A DNA stretch of 64,000 bases from Candidatus Phycosocius spiralis. Lineage in GTDB: Bacteria > Pseudomonadota > Alphaproteobacteria > Caulobacterales > Aquidulcibacteraceae. The notes below the pieces were generated by a model. The model was not told the DNA's origin and did not search any database. It worked only from the letters and a program-made list of their open reading frames with translations. A program made the position numbers and the translations under genes. Location: contig NZ_BPFZ01000001.1 in the NCBI RefSeq assembly GCF_030158815.1, positions 62,001 to 126,000 of the forward strand, read 5' to 3'. Below, one piece after another: positions 49,372 to 59,670 of this stretch; the stretch's first letter is position 1, and every line of letters begins with the position of its first letter.

Positions 49372-49475
49372 CGTGCGTTTACGAACAGACTCTGCGATGC
49401 CACCAATACGGTGTTATAGGTAACTGGATAGTCACAGTCTGATCTAGTAAGTGCTTTGTTTTTATATGAAAATAA

Positions 49476-49565
49476 TGGCGGACAGGGTGGGATTCGAACC
49501 CACGGTAGACTTTCACCTACGGCGGTTTTCAAGACCGCTGCCTTAAACCACTCGGCCACCTGTCC
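49476..49565 (-). tRNA. tRNA-Ser (TGA)
   Basis: A 90-base class II tRNA. The acceptor GGACAGG pairs with CCTGTCC, the anticodon arm GCGGT-CTTGAAA-ACCGC gives anticodon TGA, a long variable arm is present, and GCCA ends the gene. Its 3' end faces the GC-rich accessory region, the usual orientation for island integration. Confidence 0.96.
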
Positions 49566-49754
49566 GCATTTTGAAATGTCCAGTCGAAATCGAGCACGAA
49601 ATCGGGTGAGAAAATCGGAAATTAGATAAAAGTTGATCTAAAATCCAAGCATTCATTTCAAACTTTGCTTCTAAAGTGCATTAGGTCTTCGGATCAACTG
49701 GCGTACGACAAGAGTCTGCAAAAACTACTGCATTGAACTCAGGTGGGACAAAGC

Positions 49755-50855
49755 ATGATTCAGAATATGGTGATCAAACCCTTTGAAGCTCCGATTGTGC
49801 GTAGGCATAAAGAAAGATCAGGTTTAGGTATTATGCGAAGTTTTGCTGGTCTTGTGTTGTTTTTTTCTGGTGTATGTAACCAGCCTGTGCTGGCGGCATC
49901 GCAAGAACGCGCCACCTTGTCTAACACCATGGCCAACGTAGTTAATAACGAAGCTGCCTCACCTGATCGTACGTCTCTGATTGCCCGACGTCCTAGTACC
50001 AAATCAACATCCTTCAGCACACAGTCCGCCGCGAAAGCGGGAATGGGCATTGTAGACAATCCAAGCCTACATCCACACTCGCCGATCACCATTGCTGCCT
50101 CTGAGCCTCCTCTAGCCCCATCTGTACGGCCAATGGATGTCCAGGATTTTCAAAAAATCGGTGCGCCTTATCAGGCCAATGGTACTTGGTATATTCCCGC
50201 CCATGAGCCCGATTATAATGAGATTGGGACTGCTTCATGGTATGGTCGTGATTTTCACGGCCGAACAACTGCCAATGGGGAAGTGTTTGATATGAATGTT
50301 GTCTCCGCTGCCCATCCAACATTACCAATCCCCAGTCTTGTTGAAGTCACCAATCTGGCCAATGGACGATCCATGATTGTGCGGGTCAATGATCGTGGTC
50401 CGTTTGTTGGCAATCGGTTGATAGATCTATCTGCCCGCGGTGCTTATTTATTGGGGTTCCAAGATCAAGGCTCAACCCAAGTGCGGGTGCGTTACGTTGG
50501 CCCAGCCGATCCAAAACCGCTGGTTAGTCTTGCCACACTGTCGCCAGCCAGCGAGGAGAAAAAATCATCTAAACCCATGGCACTTGGAGAAGTCACTCAA
50601 GCAACCAACCGGGCATCTCGAGCTCTATATGTGCAAGCAGGGGCCTTTTTAAGTCGCTCTAATGCGCAGCGCGCGCTCAGCCAACTGGGCGGTATAGGGT
50701 CAGCAAGTATTGTAAAGAGCCAAAATAAAGATGGCATCACCTTGTATAGGCTGGTGATTGGACCAGTAATGAACCCTGAAGAAGCTCGTCAAACAGCCCA
50801 GACAATCTCAACTTTTGGCTTAGGTGGTGCCCATGTGATGGCTTCAATCGATTAG
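49755..50855 (+). CDS. rlpA: RlpA-like lytic transglycosylase with SPOR domain
   Basis: An exported septal protein. A signal segment (SFAGLVLFFSGVCNQPVLA) follows an N-terminal extension of about 30 residues. The central double-psi beta-barrel has GTASWYGRDFHGRTTANGEV and IVRVNDRGPFVGNRLIDLS, including the Glu and Asp that correspond to the catalytic pair of Pseudomonas RlpA. The last 75 residues form a SPOR domain (ALYVQAGAFLSRSNAQRAL, LYRLVIGPV), which binds denuded septal peptidoglycan. ATG 49755 with AGGTGGG upstream is preferred over GTG 49743. ATG 49833 would give a conventional signal peptide. Confidence 0.9.
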   Translation: MIQNMVIKPFEAPIVRRHKERSGLGIMRSFAGLVLFFSGVCNQPVLAASQERATLSNTMANVVNNEAASPDRTSLIARRPSTKSTSFSTQSAAKAGMGIVDNPSLHPHSPITIAASEPPLAPSVRPMDVQDFQKIGAPYQANGTWYIPAHEPDYNEIGTASWYGRDFHGRTTANGEVFDMNVVSAAHPTLPIPSLVEVTNLANGRSMIVRVNDRGPFVGNRLIDLSARGAYLLGFQDQGSTQVRVRYVGPADPKPLVSLATLSPASEEKKSSKPMALGEVTQATNRASRALYVQAGAFLSRSNAQRALSQLGGIGSASIVKSQNKDGITLYRLVIGPVMNPEEARQTAQTISTFGLGGAHVMASID

Positions 50856-54359: not shown

Positions 54360-55688
54360 TTAATTATTAAATATCCAAATCGACAGACTATGGATAATCA
54401 GGCCCACAAGGCCCCCAATCACGGTGCCGCTGATGCGGATATATTGTAAATCACGGCCAACTGCGGCTTCAATCTGATCGACCACGGTTCGCGCGTCCCA
54501 GCTCTGGATGGTTTCAGCGACCATGGTACCGACACCTGCACCTTGCGCGCCCGCCAATTCAACAGCCCAAGCCTTTAGGCGCTTATTCAAGCTTTCGCGA
54601 AGCTCTGGGTCTTGCTCTATCGCCCGTGCAAGATCTTCTAGGCCCGCTGCAATGGCGGTACTTAGGCGCTCAGTTTCCTGTGGGGTTTGATCGCGCAAGG
54701 ATTTTTTGAGGTCATTCCATACTTGGGTCACATAATTGCGCACGACTTGGTGGTCAGACACCTCATAGACCCAACGCTGTAATTGATCGCGCAGATTAGG
54801 GTCGTGGCGTAAATCGCGGGCAAAATGGGCTAAAGCCTCATCAATTCTGGTGCGTATCGAATGGTTTGGGTCTTTTGAAGCCGCTTTCAACGTGTCCTTG
54901 ATGGCGGTGAGAAGCGCGTCAGAGGCGGCCGCATCAACCGAAAATAGCTTTGGTAACCAATCCATCTTGTCGGACACGCGGGTTCTAAATTCGGTTTCTT
55001 CTGAATGAATGGCAAGGTCCGCATGAAACAGGATCAAGTCCACAATGGCTGTGTGACGCCCGCCACGGATCAAAATATCGAGCCCCTCGGCCAATAACTG
55101 GGCGATATCGGCATGGCGCAAACGCTCAGTTAAGGTCGATTGCAGCCATTGGGCAATCTTGCCTTCATTGAGTAAGCCCAAGATACGCGGTACGGCCCCA
55201 GCTATCCCATGCCCAATGCGGCGCGCACGATCGCCTTCAGTGAGCCAATGCGCGCTCCCGCCCGCTAAATCCATGTCCTTGAGGCGGCGTTGCACTTGAT
55301 CGGGCTGGAGGAAGTTGCGGGAGATAAATCGGCCAAGGCCCGCGCCAATGCGGTCCTTCGACCGGGGAATAATGGCGGTGTGGGGAATAGGTAGACCCAA
55401 TGGGCGGCGAAACAGGGCCGTCACCGCAAACCAATCGGCCAACGCCCCAACCATAGCCGCCTCTGCAAAAGCGCGGATAAAGGGAACCGCCGGGTGGCTG
55501 GCCTCAAAAAACTTGGCCACCACAAACAAAGCCGTCATACCCAGAAACAAGCCCGTCGCGACCCGCTTCATCCGGCGATAGGCAATCATAGGATCTTCGG
55601 TCAGTGCCGGATTAAGGCCCATGGGCGTCGGTGGCTTAACATCAATCATCGGAATTTGGCGAAGTCCTGTTTGCACGTGGTCGCGCAT
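54360..55688 (-). CDS. DUF445 family membrane protein
   Basis: A protein of about 442 residues, with an N-terminal membrane segment (VATGLFLGMTALFVVAKFFE), the conserved AEAAMVGALADWFAVTALFR and GLPIPHTAIIPRSKDRIGAG blocks, a long helical cytosolic or periplasmic middle, and a final membrane helix (GTVIGGLVGLIIHSLSIWIF). The family is widespread and of unknown function. Several in-frame starts exist (55745, 55688, 55649); none has a strong ribosome site, and 55649 gives the most usual N-terminus. It converges on the MBL gene. Confidence 0.88.
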   Translation of the reverse strand: MRDHVQTGLRQIPMIDVKPPTPMGLNPALTEDPMIAYRRMKRVATGLFLGMTALFVVAKFFEASHPAVPFIRAFAEAAMVGALADWFAVTALFRRPLGLPIPHTAIIPRSKDRIGAGLGRFISRNFLQPDQVQRRLKDMDLAGGSAHWLTEGDRARRIGHGIAGAVPRILGLLNEGKIAQWLQSTLTERLRHADIAQLLAEGLDILIRGGRHTAIVDLILFHADLAIHSEETEFRTRVSDKMDWLPKLFSVDAAASDALLTAIKDTLKAASKDPNHSIRTRIDEALAHFARDLRHDPNLRDQLQRWVYEVSDHQVVRNYVTQVWNDLKKSLRDQTPQETERLSTAIAAGLEDLARAIEQDPELRESLNKRLKAWAVELAGAQGAGVGTMVAETIQSWDARTVVDQIEAAVGRDLQYIRISGTVIGGLVGLIIHSLSIWIFNN

Positions 55689-55866
55689 GTGTAGCGATAA
55701 AGCTATCAACTTATACCAGATGGCGATGCAAAGGGCATCCGGCAAGGCATTGCGGCTAAATGCTTGCGCATCAATCCTGCTAGCCGATTAAGAATTCCTG
55801 CACGGGTTACGATTGTTTTTCCATGCAACTTGGGTAAGCTTATCGAACAAAGATGGGTGAGTTTAC

Positions 55867-56724
55867 GTGAGAAAATGGCTTGGTTTCGCAGTCGCGTTTA
55901 TGCTTTTGGCACTCAGCGGCACGGTGCCTAGCGTGGCCCAAGATGAGGTGGACATCAGTTCCTCCTTTCCCGGTCTAAACGACGTTTCGCTCAAAAATTT
56001 AGGGCAACCGACCTCGTTTGCCGTGCCCACGGGATCCAGCACGGCCGTTGAATACCTGTTCTCCTTCACGAGGAAACCCGAAGTTGAGATTATATATCCA
56101 ACAAGGCAAATCTCATTTATGATGAGCTTTGGTGCTTCAGACCCTTCTTTTAGTAGCGCGGGGTGGAAAGAACACTGCGACTCTGGGCGCATGAAGTGCG
56201 TAGACAGCGATCGTGGTGAAGTTCGAAATTTCTGGGTAATGAGTTTTTACGAGTATAATTATCGTTATTTAACTTGTGATGAAGCGCTGGCTTTAGCCAA
56301 GATTGGCGCGCGGATGAATGGCTATCAAGTCATTGGTCTAGGGTCATATAGGTGCTGGCCATTCGATTGGGCGGCAGGCGAGCTCAATCTCGCCCCGAAA
56401 AAGGCGATCGTTGCCGGTCAATGCACCGCCAAAAGCTATGCGGGTCCTTGGTCGCGCCCGGGGAAGGGTGCGCAGCGCCCACAGGTGCGTTTACAATTTG
56501 ATGACGCCTCCGCCACCAAACAACCCATGGGCCGTGTTTCAGGCTTCAATGCGTCGCCTTATGGGGAAGGTGAGGTGGTGGTATCCCAAATTCAGGCATC
56601 TAAAACCTGCGAATACCGCGCCCAATGCACATCTCCCTTAGGCAGCGCAAACCCCTGCACCTTAAATGTTGATCCTGCAAAAGGGACGCTAAAAAAATCC
56701 TTGGCGGACCAAAGATATTTGTAA
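55867..56724 (+). CDS. Exported protein, 5' part of a two-module gene
   Basis: Not recognised. Residues 1-24 are a signal peptide ending SVAQ. Residues 30-180 form a domain with WKEHCDSGRMKCVDSD and YLTCDEALALAKIGARM. A first Cys-containing module starts at GQCTAKSYAGPWSRPG and ends KTCEYRAQCTSPLG with NPCTLNVDPAKGTLKK. The frame then stops at 56724, but the next bases in the +1 frame continue with a second copy of the same module. A seven-A run at 56691-56697 sits exactly at the junction, so one missing A explains the break. The GTG start has GGGTGAG upstream. Confidence 0.6.
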   Translation: MRKWLGFAVAFMLLALSGTVPSVAQDEVDISSSFPGLNDVSLKNLGQPTSFAVPTGSSTAVEYLFSFTRKPEVEIIYPTRQISFMMSFGASDPSFSSAGWKEHCDSGRMKCVDSDRGEVRNFWVMSFYEYNYRYLTCDEALALAKIGARMNGYQVIGLGSYRCWPFDWAAGELNLAPKKAIVAGQCTAKSYAGPWSRPGKGAQRPQVRLQFDDASATKQPMGRVSGFNASPYGEGEVVVSQIQASKTCEYRAQCTSPLGSANPCTLNVDPAKGTLKKSLADQRYL

Positions 56725-57086
56725 CCAACGTCGAATGGACGCGTGCAGGACCGGCACCTCAAGAAAAGACCTGTGGCGCAGCCGACATTGAGGGTAATTG
56801 GACGCGAACCGACGGCGCACAAGTCACGGTGGCTGGGGTGCGGTTTAAGGATGGCGGCAACGCGCTTTTGTATAATCATCCAACCGGCGGATGGCCCCAA
56901 GGCGCGTTTAAATTCAGTCAGATTAAGTCAACGGGTTCGTGCAATTGGGAAGCCCAATGTGCGACCGTTTATCGCGACTCCAGCAAAGGCGGCTTCAACA
57001 CGGTTCGTGGCGCTTGTACCCTGACCGTTGATCCTGAAACCAAAACAATGACGGCAAGTGGTACCCATGGCTCATTCAAACGCTAA
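56718..57086 (+). pseudogene. 3' part of the two-module exported protein, out of frame
   Basis: In this frame the sequence runs VTNVEWTRAGPAPQEKTCGA, then GNWTRTDGAQVTVAGVRFKD, KFSQIKSTGSCNWEAQC and ACTLTVDPETKTMTASGTHG. It mirrors the first module position by position: GxW-R, RF-D, SQI, C-x-x-x-A-QC and CTL-VDP-x-x-x-T. It has no ribosome site of its own, so it should be read as the end of the upstream gene, giving about 406 residues in total. Confidence 0.6.
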
Positions 57087-57525
57087 GAAGATCATTTTCG
57101 CTGGACTTGCTGTCGCCAGCATGGCAGCGCCAGCATCAGTGCAGGCACAAGACTTTTTGATAAAACGGGCAGATCCGGCAAAAATTGCTGCGGCTTATCC
57201 ACCAAAAGCGCTACGTGCAGGTATAGACGGCTGGGTCATGCTTCAGTGCAGCGTGCGCAAGACCGGGCAATTTGAGAAATGCACAATTTTGGAAGAAAAA
57301 CCGTTAGGCTACGGCTTTGGCGCTGCCGCACTTGCCTTTGGACCCGACTATTGGATCAATTTGAAAGACCCAAGAGCGGGAGCATTGCTGGGCGACCGTG
57401 TTCCTCAGGATATCGTGTTCAGGGTTGACGATGCACTCAAGTTGCCCGCCAAACCAATTAAGCCGCCCGCTAAACCCGTGCCACCGCTATGCCCGAGCAA
57501 AAAGGACTGCATGGAGGTAAATTGA
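57067..57525 (+). CDS. Exported TonB C-terminal-like protein
   Basis: A protein of about 152 residues with a signal peptide (IIFAGLAVASMAAPASVQAQ) and one TonB-C-like domain: AAAYPPKALRAGIDGWVMLQ, CSVRKTGQFEKCTILEEKP and GYGFGAAALAFG. Unlike TonB it has no N-terminal membrane anchor or long Pro-rich spacer in front, but its tail is proline-rich (KPIKPPAKPVPPLCP) with Cys residues. It overlaps the end of the upstream two-module gene by 20 bases, implying coupled translation. The function is not known. Confidence 0.72.
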   Translation: MAHSNAKKIIFAGLAVASMAAPASVQAQDFLIKRADPAKIAAAYPPKALRAGIDGWVMLQCSVRKTGQFEKCTILEEKPLGYGFGAAALAFGPDYWINLKDPRAGALLGDRVPQDIVFRVDDALKLPAKPIKPPAKPVPPLCPSKKDCMEVN

Positions 57526-57747
57526 AGTGCGCATCCCAATGCGCGCTTGAATCAGTTTGGTTATGGCGGTCGTTCGACCAGACAATCATGTTAAATTGAA
57601 GTTTAGACCATTTTGTCCCATAATACATATTATGCGAATTACGGATGAGGCGATTGATGAGTATAATGGCGCCTAATGCCTTCTAAAGATCATTGACGAG
57701 CGCGAACTCCCCTATTAGCTTCTGACGATTAGAGTTGGAGATATTCG

Positions 57748-58497
57748 ATGCGCTATTGGGTTATTGGTTTAGCTTTTTGTTTTGTGGGTTGTGCGTCTGT
57801 ACCAGTGTCGCCGGAGGAGCAAGTTCGCTTTGATACGATAGCAAGTCGCCTTAAGCCGCCTGCAACACTCTCTGGCGCGTTTTCAATAGTCGACCAGCGA
57901 AAGCCCGACGCTACTCAGGTCAAGGTCAATTTGACCGGTTTGGCTGGGGGGTTTTCATGTTTTATTGGTATTTCGCAGCTTGGGGATTCCAAATTTGCCG
58001 CCGACCGTATTGCGCGACTTGAGAATGCGCTGGCTGAGGCATTTCCAGGACGTTCAGGCCAACTAATTGTCAGACGGTACGACATCTATCTCAACCAAGG
58101 AAGCGAAGTCAGCACTATGGTCTGGTCAGTGGCCATCGGAGGCGCTTTGGGGGCCGCCGCGGCAAGCGGTGGCTTGGTTGGGTCTGGAGATGTTAATGCA
58201 CCAACCGTCTGGCGTAAGCCTAGATGTGATCGAGAACGCATGCATAGTGGATGGTTCGACCCCAGCGACCTAACCAGTAATTACCCTCCCGTTACGGTCG
58301 AGCTTGACGTTTCGGTGTTTGGACAGAATTATTCTATAAACGCTGCGCACTCGTCAGAGATAGTTATAGAAACTTACGGTGTAATACCGATGCAAAAGTC
58401 ACCCGTATTCAACGCAATTTTACAGACGACTATGGACAAAGCGAATGCGCGGTTGGTTAAGGCTATCCAAGCAAACTCGCCCCCAAAGACGGATTAG
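57748..58497 (+). CDS. Putative lipoprotein, unknown function
   Basis: A 249-residue protein with a lipobox at the N-terminus (LAFCFVGC, Cys15 the acylation site). The mature part has no family I recognise. A central glycine/alanine-rich hydrophobic segment (WSVAIGGALGAAAASGGLVG) could be a membrane-inserting or flexible region, and a Cys pair is possible at C72 and in PRCDRERM. It stands behind the TonB-like gene after a 220-base gap and belongs to a run of exported proteins. Confidence 0.65.
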   Translation: MRYWVIGLAFCFVGCASVPVSPEEQVRFDTIASRLKPPATLSGAFSIVDQRKPDATQVKVNLTGLAGGFSCFIGISQLGDSKFAADRIARLENALAEAFPGRSGQLIVRRYDIYLNQGSEVSTMVWSVAIGGALGAAAASGGLVGSGDVNAPTVWRKPRCDRERMHSGWFDPSDLTSNYPPVTVELDVSVFGQNYSINAAHSSEIVIETYGVIPMQKSPVFNAILQTTMDKANARLVKAIQANSPPKTD

Positions 58498-58654
58498 AGT
58501 TTGTTAGCAAGCTTTCCTGCAACCAGCCTCAATAGATGCCAGCTTTGGGCTGACATGCCCTTCCGCCGTCGCATCGTATCATGATGTGTGGCGGTTGCCT
58601 TTCCCTGTAATCGCTCTACTTCTGACTGGGTAGATATTTAATCGGAGTTTGGTG

Positions 58655-59266
58655 ATGCCAAAAACGAACGCTCGTGGTTTAGCAGGCCTCTTTAGCCTCA
58701 GTGGCGCCTTCGCGTGCTTGATCGCCTCTGTGACTGTCACACCGAGTTTGGCGGACAAGTTACCCATGCCAGCGAAATCAACCACCTCTAGCCAGCAATT
58801 TGAAGGCTTAATGGGCGGTCAGATCGATTTATCGGCTTATAGAGGCAAAGTCGTTTTGGTCGTGAATACCGCTTCAGAATGCGGCTATACCGGCCAATAT
58901 GCGGGCCTAGAGCGTTTATGGAAAGCGCGACGCGGCGATGGATTGGTTGTTGTTGGTGTGCCCTCTAATGATTTTGGTGGTCAAGAGCCTGGCAGTGCTG
59001 CCCAGATCAAAAAATTCTGTGAGCTCAATTACGGCGTAAGTTTCCCGATGGCTGCGAAATATAGCGTTAGAGGTCCTAACGCCCATCCATTTTATCGCAA
59101 TAGTTTGAAAGTGTTGGGCGCCAAAGCTGAACCAAAATGGAACTTCCATAAAATCTTGATTGGCAAGGATGGGCGCCCTGTAGACGCCTTCCCTTCGGCC
59201 GTCACGCCTGATGCTAAAGAGCTGACCCGGGCCATCAATGCAGCGTTGGCCGCACCAACAACCTAA
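58655..59266 (+). CDS. Exported glutathione peroxidase family protein
   Basis: A thiol peroxidase of the GPx fold, here with an export segment (SGAFACLIASVTVTPSLA) that most bacterial GPx lack. The catalytic set is present: peroxidatic Cys in VNTASECGYTGQYAGLE, Gln in VPSNDFGGQEPG and Trp in PKWNFHKILIG. The active site uses Cys, not selenocysteine. It probably detoxifies peroxides in the periplasm with thioredoxin-like reductants. CGGAG lies seven bases before ATG 58655. Confidence 0.9.
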   Translation: MPKTNARGLAGLFSLSGAFACLIASVTVTPSLADKLPMPAKSTTSSQQFEGLMGGQIDLSAYRGKVVLVVNTASECGYTGQYAGLERLWKARRGDGLVVVGVPSNDFGGQEPGSAAQIKKFCELNYGVSFPMAAKYSVRGPNAHPFYRNSLKVLGAKAEPKWNFHKILIGKDGRPVDAFPSAVTPDAKELTRAINAALAAPTT

Positions 59267-59331: not shown

Positions 59332-59670
59332 TCGTCCCATTGCCGCGCCATTACGCCGGCTTATTTGTTGCGCGCAATGATGGCCGATGTGGGCGATGAG
59401 GATTTGCTTCAAACTGGGCAAGACCGCACAGGCTTCTTCTACGCTTTGGTGACCTTAATCGGTAAAGCAGTCTCTGCGGTCGCTGTAGGGGTCACCTATA
59501 TTGGCCTGGGTCTGATCGGATTTGACTCTAACCTCGGTACCCAAAACAGTTCGCTCGCTTTGACGGGGTTAACCTTTCTATTTATCGGCGTGCCAATAAT
59601 CGTCAGTTTGATTGGCACTGCATTACTTTTATGCTACCTAATTGATTTTAATAGAACTATTAAGCTGTAA
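59332..59670 (+). pseudogene. C-terminal stump of an MFS (GPH-type) transporter
   Basis: The frame from a TGA at 59329 to 59670 encodes only the end of a sugar/cation symporter: AYLLRAMMADVGDEDLLQTG, QDRTGFFYALVTLIGKAVSA, YIGLGLIGFDSNLG and two further helices. It corresponds to the family motif AD-x-x-D-x-D-x-x-x-TG-x-R-x-x-G-x-FFA-x-x-T. The roughly 300 N-terminal residues are gone. A product starting at 59365 could be made, but it would not be a transporter. Confidence 0.7.

Follow-up and report, generated by a model that had tools for sequence, protein, structure and literature searches.

Genes and features of the locus

The window, a stretch of 64,000 nucleotides from Candidatus Phycosocius spiralis that was analysed as a whole, carries a gene known to date from a single bacterial genome. 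Its first part is a frame-0 ORF of 285 aa (55867..56724, + strand), which ranked top of the six frames by codon preference. It starts with a signal-peptide-like segment, followed by an N-terminal domain (about residues 26–178, four Cys), a cysteine module (module A, about residues 179–277, four Cys) and an eight-residue tail, SLADQRYL. A second module, module B (56697..57086, +), lies in the −1 frame, which stays open for 129 codons up to the stop ending at 57086. Joined, the two frames give 277 + 129 = 406 residues, in agreement with the protein of about 406 residues proposed by an earlier reading of the letters alone (the sequence-only reading). That reading had also called the protein exported. 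From the signal-peptide-like residues 1–25, judged by eye, the 285-aa product is probably exported and carries a putative signal peptide. The N-terminal domain was tried as a third copy of the module and rejected, 703 and 1178 of 2000 shuffles reaching its score.

Downstream there is a gene for a small protein with a TonB_C domain and a signal-peptide-like start (57064..57525, +; Pfam PF03544, E 1.7e-6, from a run on 57058–57522). Module B and this gene share 23 nt, the end of the one overlapping the start of the other, so the module gene and the TonB_C-like gene probably form one operon. A dif-like XerCD site, recognized by BLASTN to congener loci and by pattern search, follows at 57612..57638 (+), 0.5–1.7 kb from the module gene. 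On its other side there is a lipoprotein-like ORF of 249 aa (57748..58497, +). The outer neighbours, both conserved in the genus, are a DUF445 gene (54363–55745, present in 9/9 genomes) and a glutathione peroxidase gene (58649–59266).

A second copy of the lipoprotein-like gene, 68% identical to it, lies on contig C11 of this genome, next to a short, 46% identical fragment (L091, L092). Among 60 other genomes, the gene gave one weak match (G025, E 0.006). The MFS gene at 59365–59667 is a remnant, which aligns only to residues 356–467 of the 476-aa protein of the congeners, that is to its C-terminal quarter.

Two homologous cysteine modules in different frames

Module A (56389..56691, +) was recognized by its motifs, by alignment to module B and by codon preference. 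Its motifs come in the order C186, GPWSR, SQI, CEYRAQC and CTLNVDP, and those of module B, read from 56697, in the order C26, GNWTR, SQI, CNWEAQC and CTLTVDP. On re-reading the sequence, the coordinates and motifs previously given for both modules were right. The claim that they are homologous was borne out by local alignment across the two frames, which scored 83, the best of 2000 shuffles reaching 56. The trimmed modules scored 81 against each other (maximum 50 in 2000 shuffles), with 31 identities among 82 aligned residue pairs, and module B read in its two incorrect forward frames scored 24 and 18 against module A. By these alignments the duplication is statistically real, and among the three forward frames only the −1 frame is homologous to module A. 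At the DNA level the likeness of the two modules is slight (local score 23, a value without a shuffle control), so the duplication is probably old.

The two modules had been described as having the same spacing, which holds around the Cys and GxW motifs: the distances from the first Cys to the W (9), from SQI to the Cys (8) and from the second to the third Cys (6) are equal. Two loops differ in length, with 45 residues in A versus 39 in B between the W and SQI, and 10 versus 19 between the third and fourth Cys.

The change of frame at the A run

The frames meet at a run of seven A (A7, 56691..56697, +), read in the phase CTA_AAA_AAA, which gives an A_AAA_AAA heptamer. A Shine-Dalgarno (SD)-like element seen in the sequence, AAAAGGGA (56679..56686, +), ends 4 nt before the run. 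Since the −1 frame is closed by the TGA at 56670–56672 and open from just past it, and frame 0 is closed by its stop at 56722–56724, the shift is confined to about 50 nt, with the A7 mid-way.

Codon preference, for which 9,898 codons in 29 gene stretches across the window supplied the frequencies, switched once. In sliding segments of 90 nt, frame 0 was ahead as far as the segment centred at 56710, and the −1 frame took over at 56725. In their own frames, module A reached 0.133, module B 0.163 and the TonB_C-like gene 0.169 bits/codon, and for each of the two modules the five other frames were negative. The N-terminal part scored about zero in frame 0 (−0.005 bits/codon) and −0.347 or less in the other frames. 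With a single switch beside the run and an overlap of the two open frames of only about 50 nt around it, the frame change that the sequence-only reading had placed at the A7 is supported.

In the frame of module B, the first ATG, GTG or TTG comes at 56829, well within the module, and there is no separate signal peptide. A module B exported independently is therefore unlikely. The two adjacent frames jointly encode one ancestral protein, the second without a start, as in a disrupted gene. No second lesion or stop was found in the 129 codons of module B, which suggests that the frame break is recent, or absent from the organism, or functional.

Search for relatives and family assignment

In 1,371 genome look-ups, which come from overlapping samples and are not distinct species, no credible relative of the module gene was found. 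The samples comprised 101 relatives (searched with the 285-aa protein and module B), 398 genomes of the order (two-module profile) and 385 genomes of the class (profile and protein). The 285-aa protein matched two of the 101 relatives at E ≤ 1e-3, its own genome and G008. The G008 match (6.8e-4) was rejected as a homologue, since it contains four stops and shares its place with a flagellin-like ORF of the opposite strand. Among the class genomes, the protein matched its own genome only (1/385).

The two-module profile gave matches in 3/398 genomes of the order at E ≤ 0.01 (its own, G122 and G396) and in 2/385 genomes of the class at E ≤ 1e-3 (its own and G615). Those in G122 and G396 lie opposite longer ORFs, and the one in G615 has stops inside and overlaps longer ORFs of other frames; all three were taken as chance.

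Module B matched 34 of the 101 relatives at E ≤ 1, its own genome included. A phmmer search in all frames of 30 loci from relatives kept five for module B, all of which were rejected. One (L004, in G081) looks by its motif like a thermonuclease-type protein. Another (L006, in G011) shares GGWP, SQI and CNW over 29 residues, in a wrong frame of a 266-aa ORF. The alignments of the remaining three (L007, L013 and L031) are without the Cys pattern. The collections of genome contigs, viral contigs, plasmids and phages, from which records very near the genome of the window may be left out, yielded no confirmed relative.

The sequence-only reading had not recognized a family, and the family searches are in line with this. 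Pfam, NCBIfam, PHROGs, PADLOC and the PDB sequences gave nothing, or weak matches far under the curated cut-off where one exists, and none that was credible. We regard as chance the best rows obtained with the two parts of the protein, namely PHROG 19625 (E 0.3), mandelonitrile lyase in NCBIfam (E 0.042; 13.7 bits, cut-off 140) and MsrA_helical in Pfam (E 0.19; 12, cut-off 23.7). The PDB search by sequence returned 11 distinct sequences at E ≤ 1. The best row, Ika8 (6g6o, 7.3e-6), presumably a repeat protein, had no stretch that passes alone, and was taken as a chance match to such a protein.

With mean pLDDT values of 36 and 50, the structure models were of too low a quality for use, and Foldseek with them gave a best E of 0.2 and no hit at E ≤ 0.001. 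The module, of roughly 100 residues, is apparently beta-rich, and the models offer at most a hint that it is all-beta. At its first predicted strand there is a C-x(n)-G-x-W, which we take to be a motif of avidin- and lipocalin-like small beta-barrels, and weak avidin-type rows were present among the Foldseek results (E 1.2 or worse). However, the modules have no sequence match to these barrels, the model is of low confidence and PilZ domains rank higher (E 0.2), and we make no claim of such a relationship.

Gene turnover beside the dif-like site

The site at 57612–57638 (reverse complement TTCGCATAATATGTATTATGGGACAAA) shows the proteobacterial dif form of about 28 bp, with two 11-bp arms, the inner CATAA...TTATG and a 6-bp centre. 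It was compared by eye with the alphaproteobacterial rows in Table 1 of PMC2731167. The pattern search found the site in 9/9 genomes of the genus, and in eight of them, including this one, DUF445 shares a contig with the site and is no more than about 3 kb away; in G008, the contigs break within the permease gene neighbouring the site. A chromosome dimer resolution (dif) site would be expected at the replication terminus; the site keeps its place throughout the genus, and G004, whose genome is a single contig, has it one time.

Further dif-like sites (up to three mismatches, other 6-bp centres) were seen in 5/9 genomes, one or two in each (L051, L052, L061, L062, L063 and L064, in G002, G005, G006, G007 and G008), those of L052 and L061 being close to a contig end. 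This would be in keeping with elements that XerCD had inserted at dif.

When positions 55746–58648 were compared by BLASTN with 14 congener loci, all 13 hits (26–46 bp) fell on the dif-like spot, the only DNA in common there. The genes of the window between DUF445 and glutathione peroxidase had no match in the four congener stretches that span both borders (L042 from G004, L045 from G006, L048 from G002 and L049 from G003). In all eight congeners, the ATPase and permease genes of an ABC exporter lie between DUF445 and dif, on one contig in seven and over two in G008, so the module gene and the TonB_C-like gene stand in the place of the exporter. The permease gave no match in the genome studied here at E ≤ 1e-3, in a search without its own positive control; the same permease, taken from G007, matched seven other congeners at 66–98%. 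The flank of dif has been swapped between this species and its congeners, with the outer neighbours kept, which marks it as a place of gene turnover.

The TonB_C-like gene has matches at E ≤ 1e-3 in 61/101 genomes, in its family and two others of the order. Among 19 fetched loci, of the matches in the 61 genomes, none had a module-like ORF beside the TonB_C-like relative. Within the genus, 6/8 congeners matched, weakly.

Explanations for the split gene

In a GeneTack survey, orphan frame transitions are put down to gene overlaps, sequencing errors and indels, and a recoding orphan is regarded as possible (PMC3711429). For the module gene, we give somewhat better than even chances to a real, recent one-base indel at the A run, a loss-of-function change that splits a lineage-specific orphan gene. 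The parent would have been an orphan, probably exported disulphide-type protein, made of the N-terminal domain and two four-Cys modules. The gene would have been split by a recent one-base change in the length of the A run at the junction of A and B, present in the organism's own DNA as well as in the assembled sequence. The present product would consist of the N-terminal domain, module A and a short random tail, with module B, possibly a binding module, left untranslated for want of a start. The stretch in which the gene sits is specific to the species and lies beside dif, and genes next to it have likewise been lost or truncated.

Several findings are consistent with the indel. Module B is as coding-like as module A and the TonB_C-like gene. 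The start of the TonB_C-like gene (57064) overlaps the end of module B, which suggests that the parent gene was once read through. Nearby losses are the truncated MFS gene and the absent ABC exporter. Against it, the phase of the break, A_AAA_AAA, is exactly the one required for recoding, no intact homologue, and indeed no homologue at all, intact or broken, was found in the genomes searched, and the data come from the assembly of one strain, in which an indel and an assembly error look alike.

An error of the assembly or consensus, the organism having an intact gene for the 406-residue two-module protein, is the next best explanation and a serious one, although we consider it clearly less probable. 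It would account for a break at a homopolymer, for a module B with no other decay and, the parent being intact, for the overlap with the next gene. However, of the window's 12 homopolymers of at least seven bases that lie in ORFs of 80 aa or more, the A7 at 56691 alone lies at a visible split, a count in which most of the other 11 ORFs have no homologue comparison across the run. Four of these 11 runs (3214, 17768, 30243 and 33478) are crossed in one frame by alignments with congeners. A comparison of the window with stretches of G003, G004 and G006, covering all but roughly 7.5–14.5, 17.9–19.3 and 36.1–49.4 kb, which have no homologues in those stretches, flagged one frameshift candidate (49468–49777). 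It covers a tRNA-Ser gene and the start of the next gene and was judged spurious. From these comparisons a general homopolymer fault in the assembly is not evident, and there may be one isolated error.

The sequence-only reading had offered two explanations, an assembly error or an on/off switch of the second module. The first is possible, as described above, whereas nothing positive was found for a switch, and an ordinary recent indel in a lineage-specific gene, which we find likeliest, had been left out. Recoding and phase switching taken together are unlikely.

Programmed −1 frameshifting, or transcriptional slippage, on A_AAA_AAA would yield two forms, the N-terminal domain with module A and the same with both modules. 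The junction would then be a functional recoding site in an envelope protein, setting a fixed ratio between the forms with one module and with two, and the gene family, seated beside dif, would belong to a single species. We hold this to be improbable, even though module B looks coding and the A7 at 56691–56697 is an X_XXY_YYZ heptamer in the required phase, as in the dnaX and insertion sequence (IS) −1 sites with their A_AAA_AAN heptamers. The chance of an A7 falling in this phase is 1 in 3. Among the IS1- and IS3-family heptamers surveyed in PMC4066793, A_AAA_AAG and A_AAA_AAA make up 72%.

Unlike those sites, the A7 has neither an SD-like element at the described distance nor a 3′ structure. 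The SD-like AAAAGGGA is badly spaced, 4 nt upstream against 10 nt 5′ for the stimulatory element described in PMC5009743. Four downstream RNA folds, computed with pseudoknots left out, were no better than shuffles (z 0.22, 0.45, 0.71 and −0.35). According to PMC4066793, a stimulator is not always present at bacterial −1 sites. A second A7 occurs in the same phase near the 3′ end of an unsplit 400-aa ORF (19104), and the genomes searched held no homologue that could show conservation of the site. For slippage, the transcriptional cases described in PMC5009743 and PMC4256274 use runs of 9 and 11 A. One of them, tssM1 of C. rodentium, resembles the module gene in having a poly-A shortly before a stop and its C-terminal part in another frame (PMC4256274). 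It differs in having an A11 instead of an A7, with slippage shown by experiment (PMC4256274).

Phase variation, with mixtures of A7 and A8 turning module B on and off, is very improbable. It would fit a homopolymer at the junction of a probably exported protein, but other ORFs carry A or T runs of 7–8 without a visible split, and an A7 is short for a phase-variation switch.

That the modules are two separate adjacent genes that were never one can practically be dismissed: they do lie in different frames, and gene overlap is a common source of orphan frame transitions, with 33% expected (PMC3711429), but module B lacks both a signal peptide and any ATG, GTG or TTG upstream of the one at 56829 in its interior, and codon preference changes beside the A run. 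Like the singletons of the GeneTack survey (PMC3711429), the module gene combines one frame transition with a lack of homologues. It differs from the singletons described there in that an internal duplication shows the right frame on both sides of the transition. The value of the case lies mostly in annotation, as the duplication ties together the two frames of an orphan gene.
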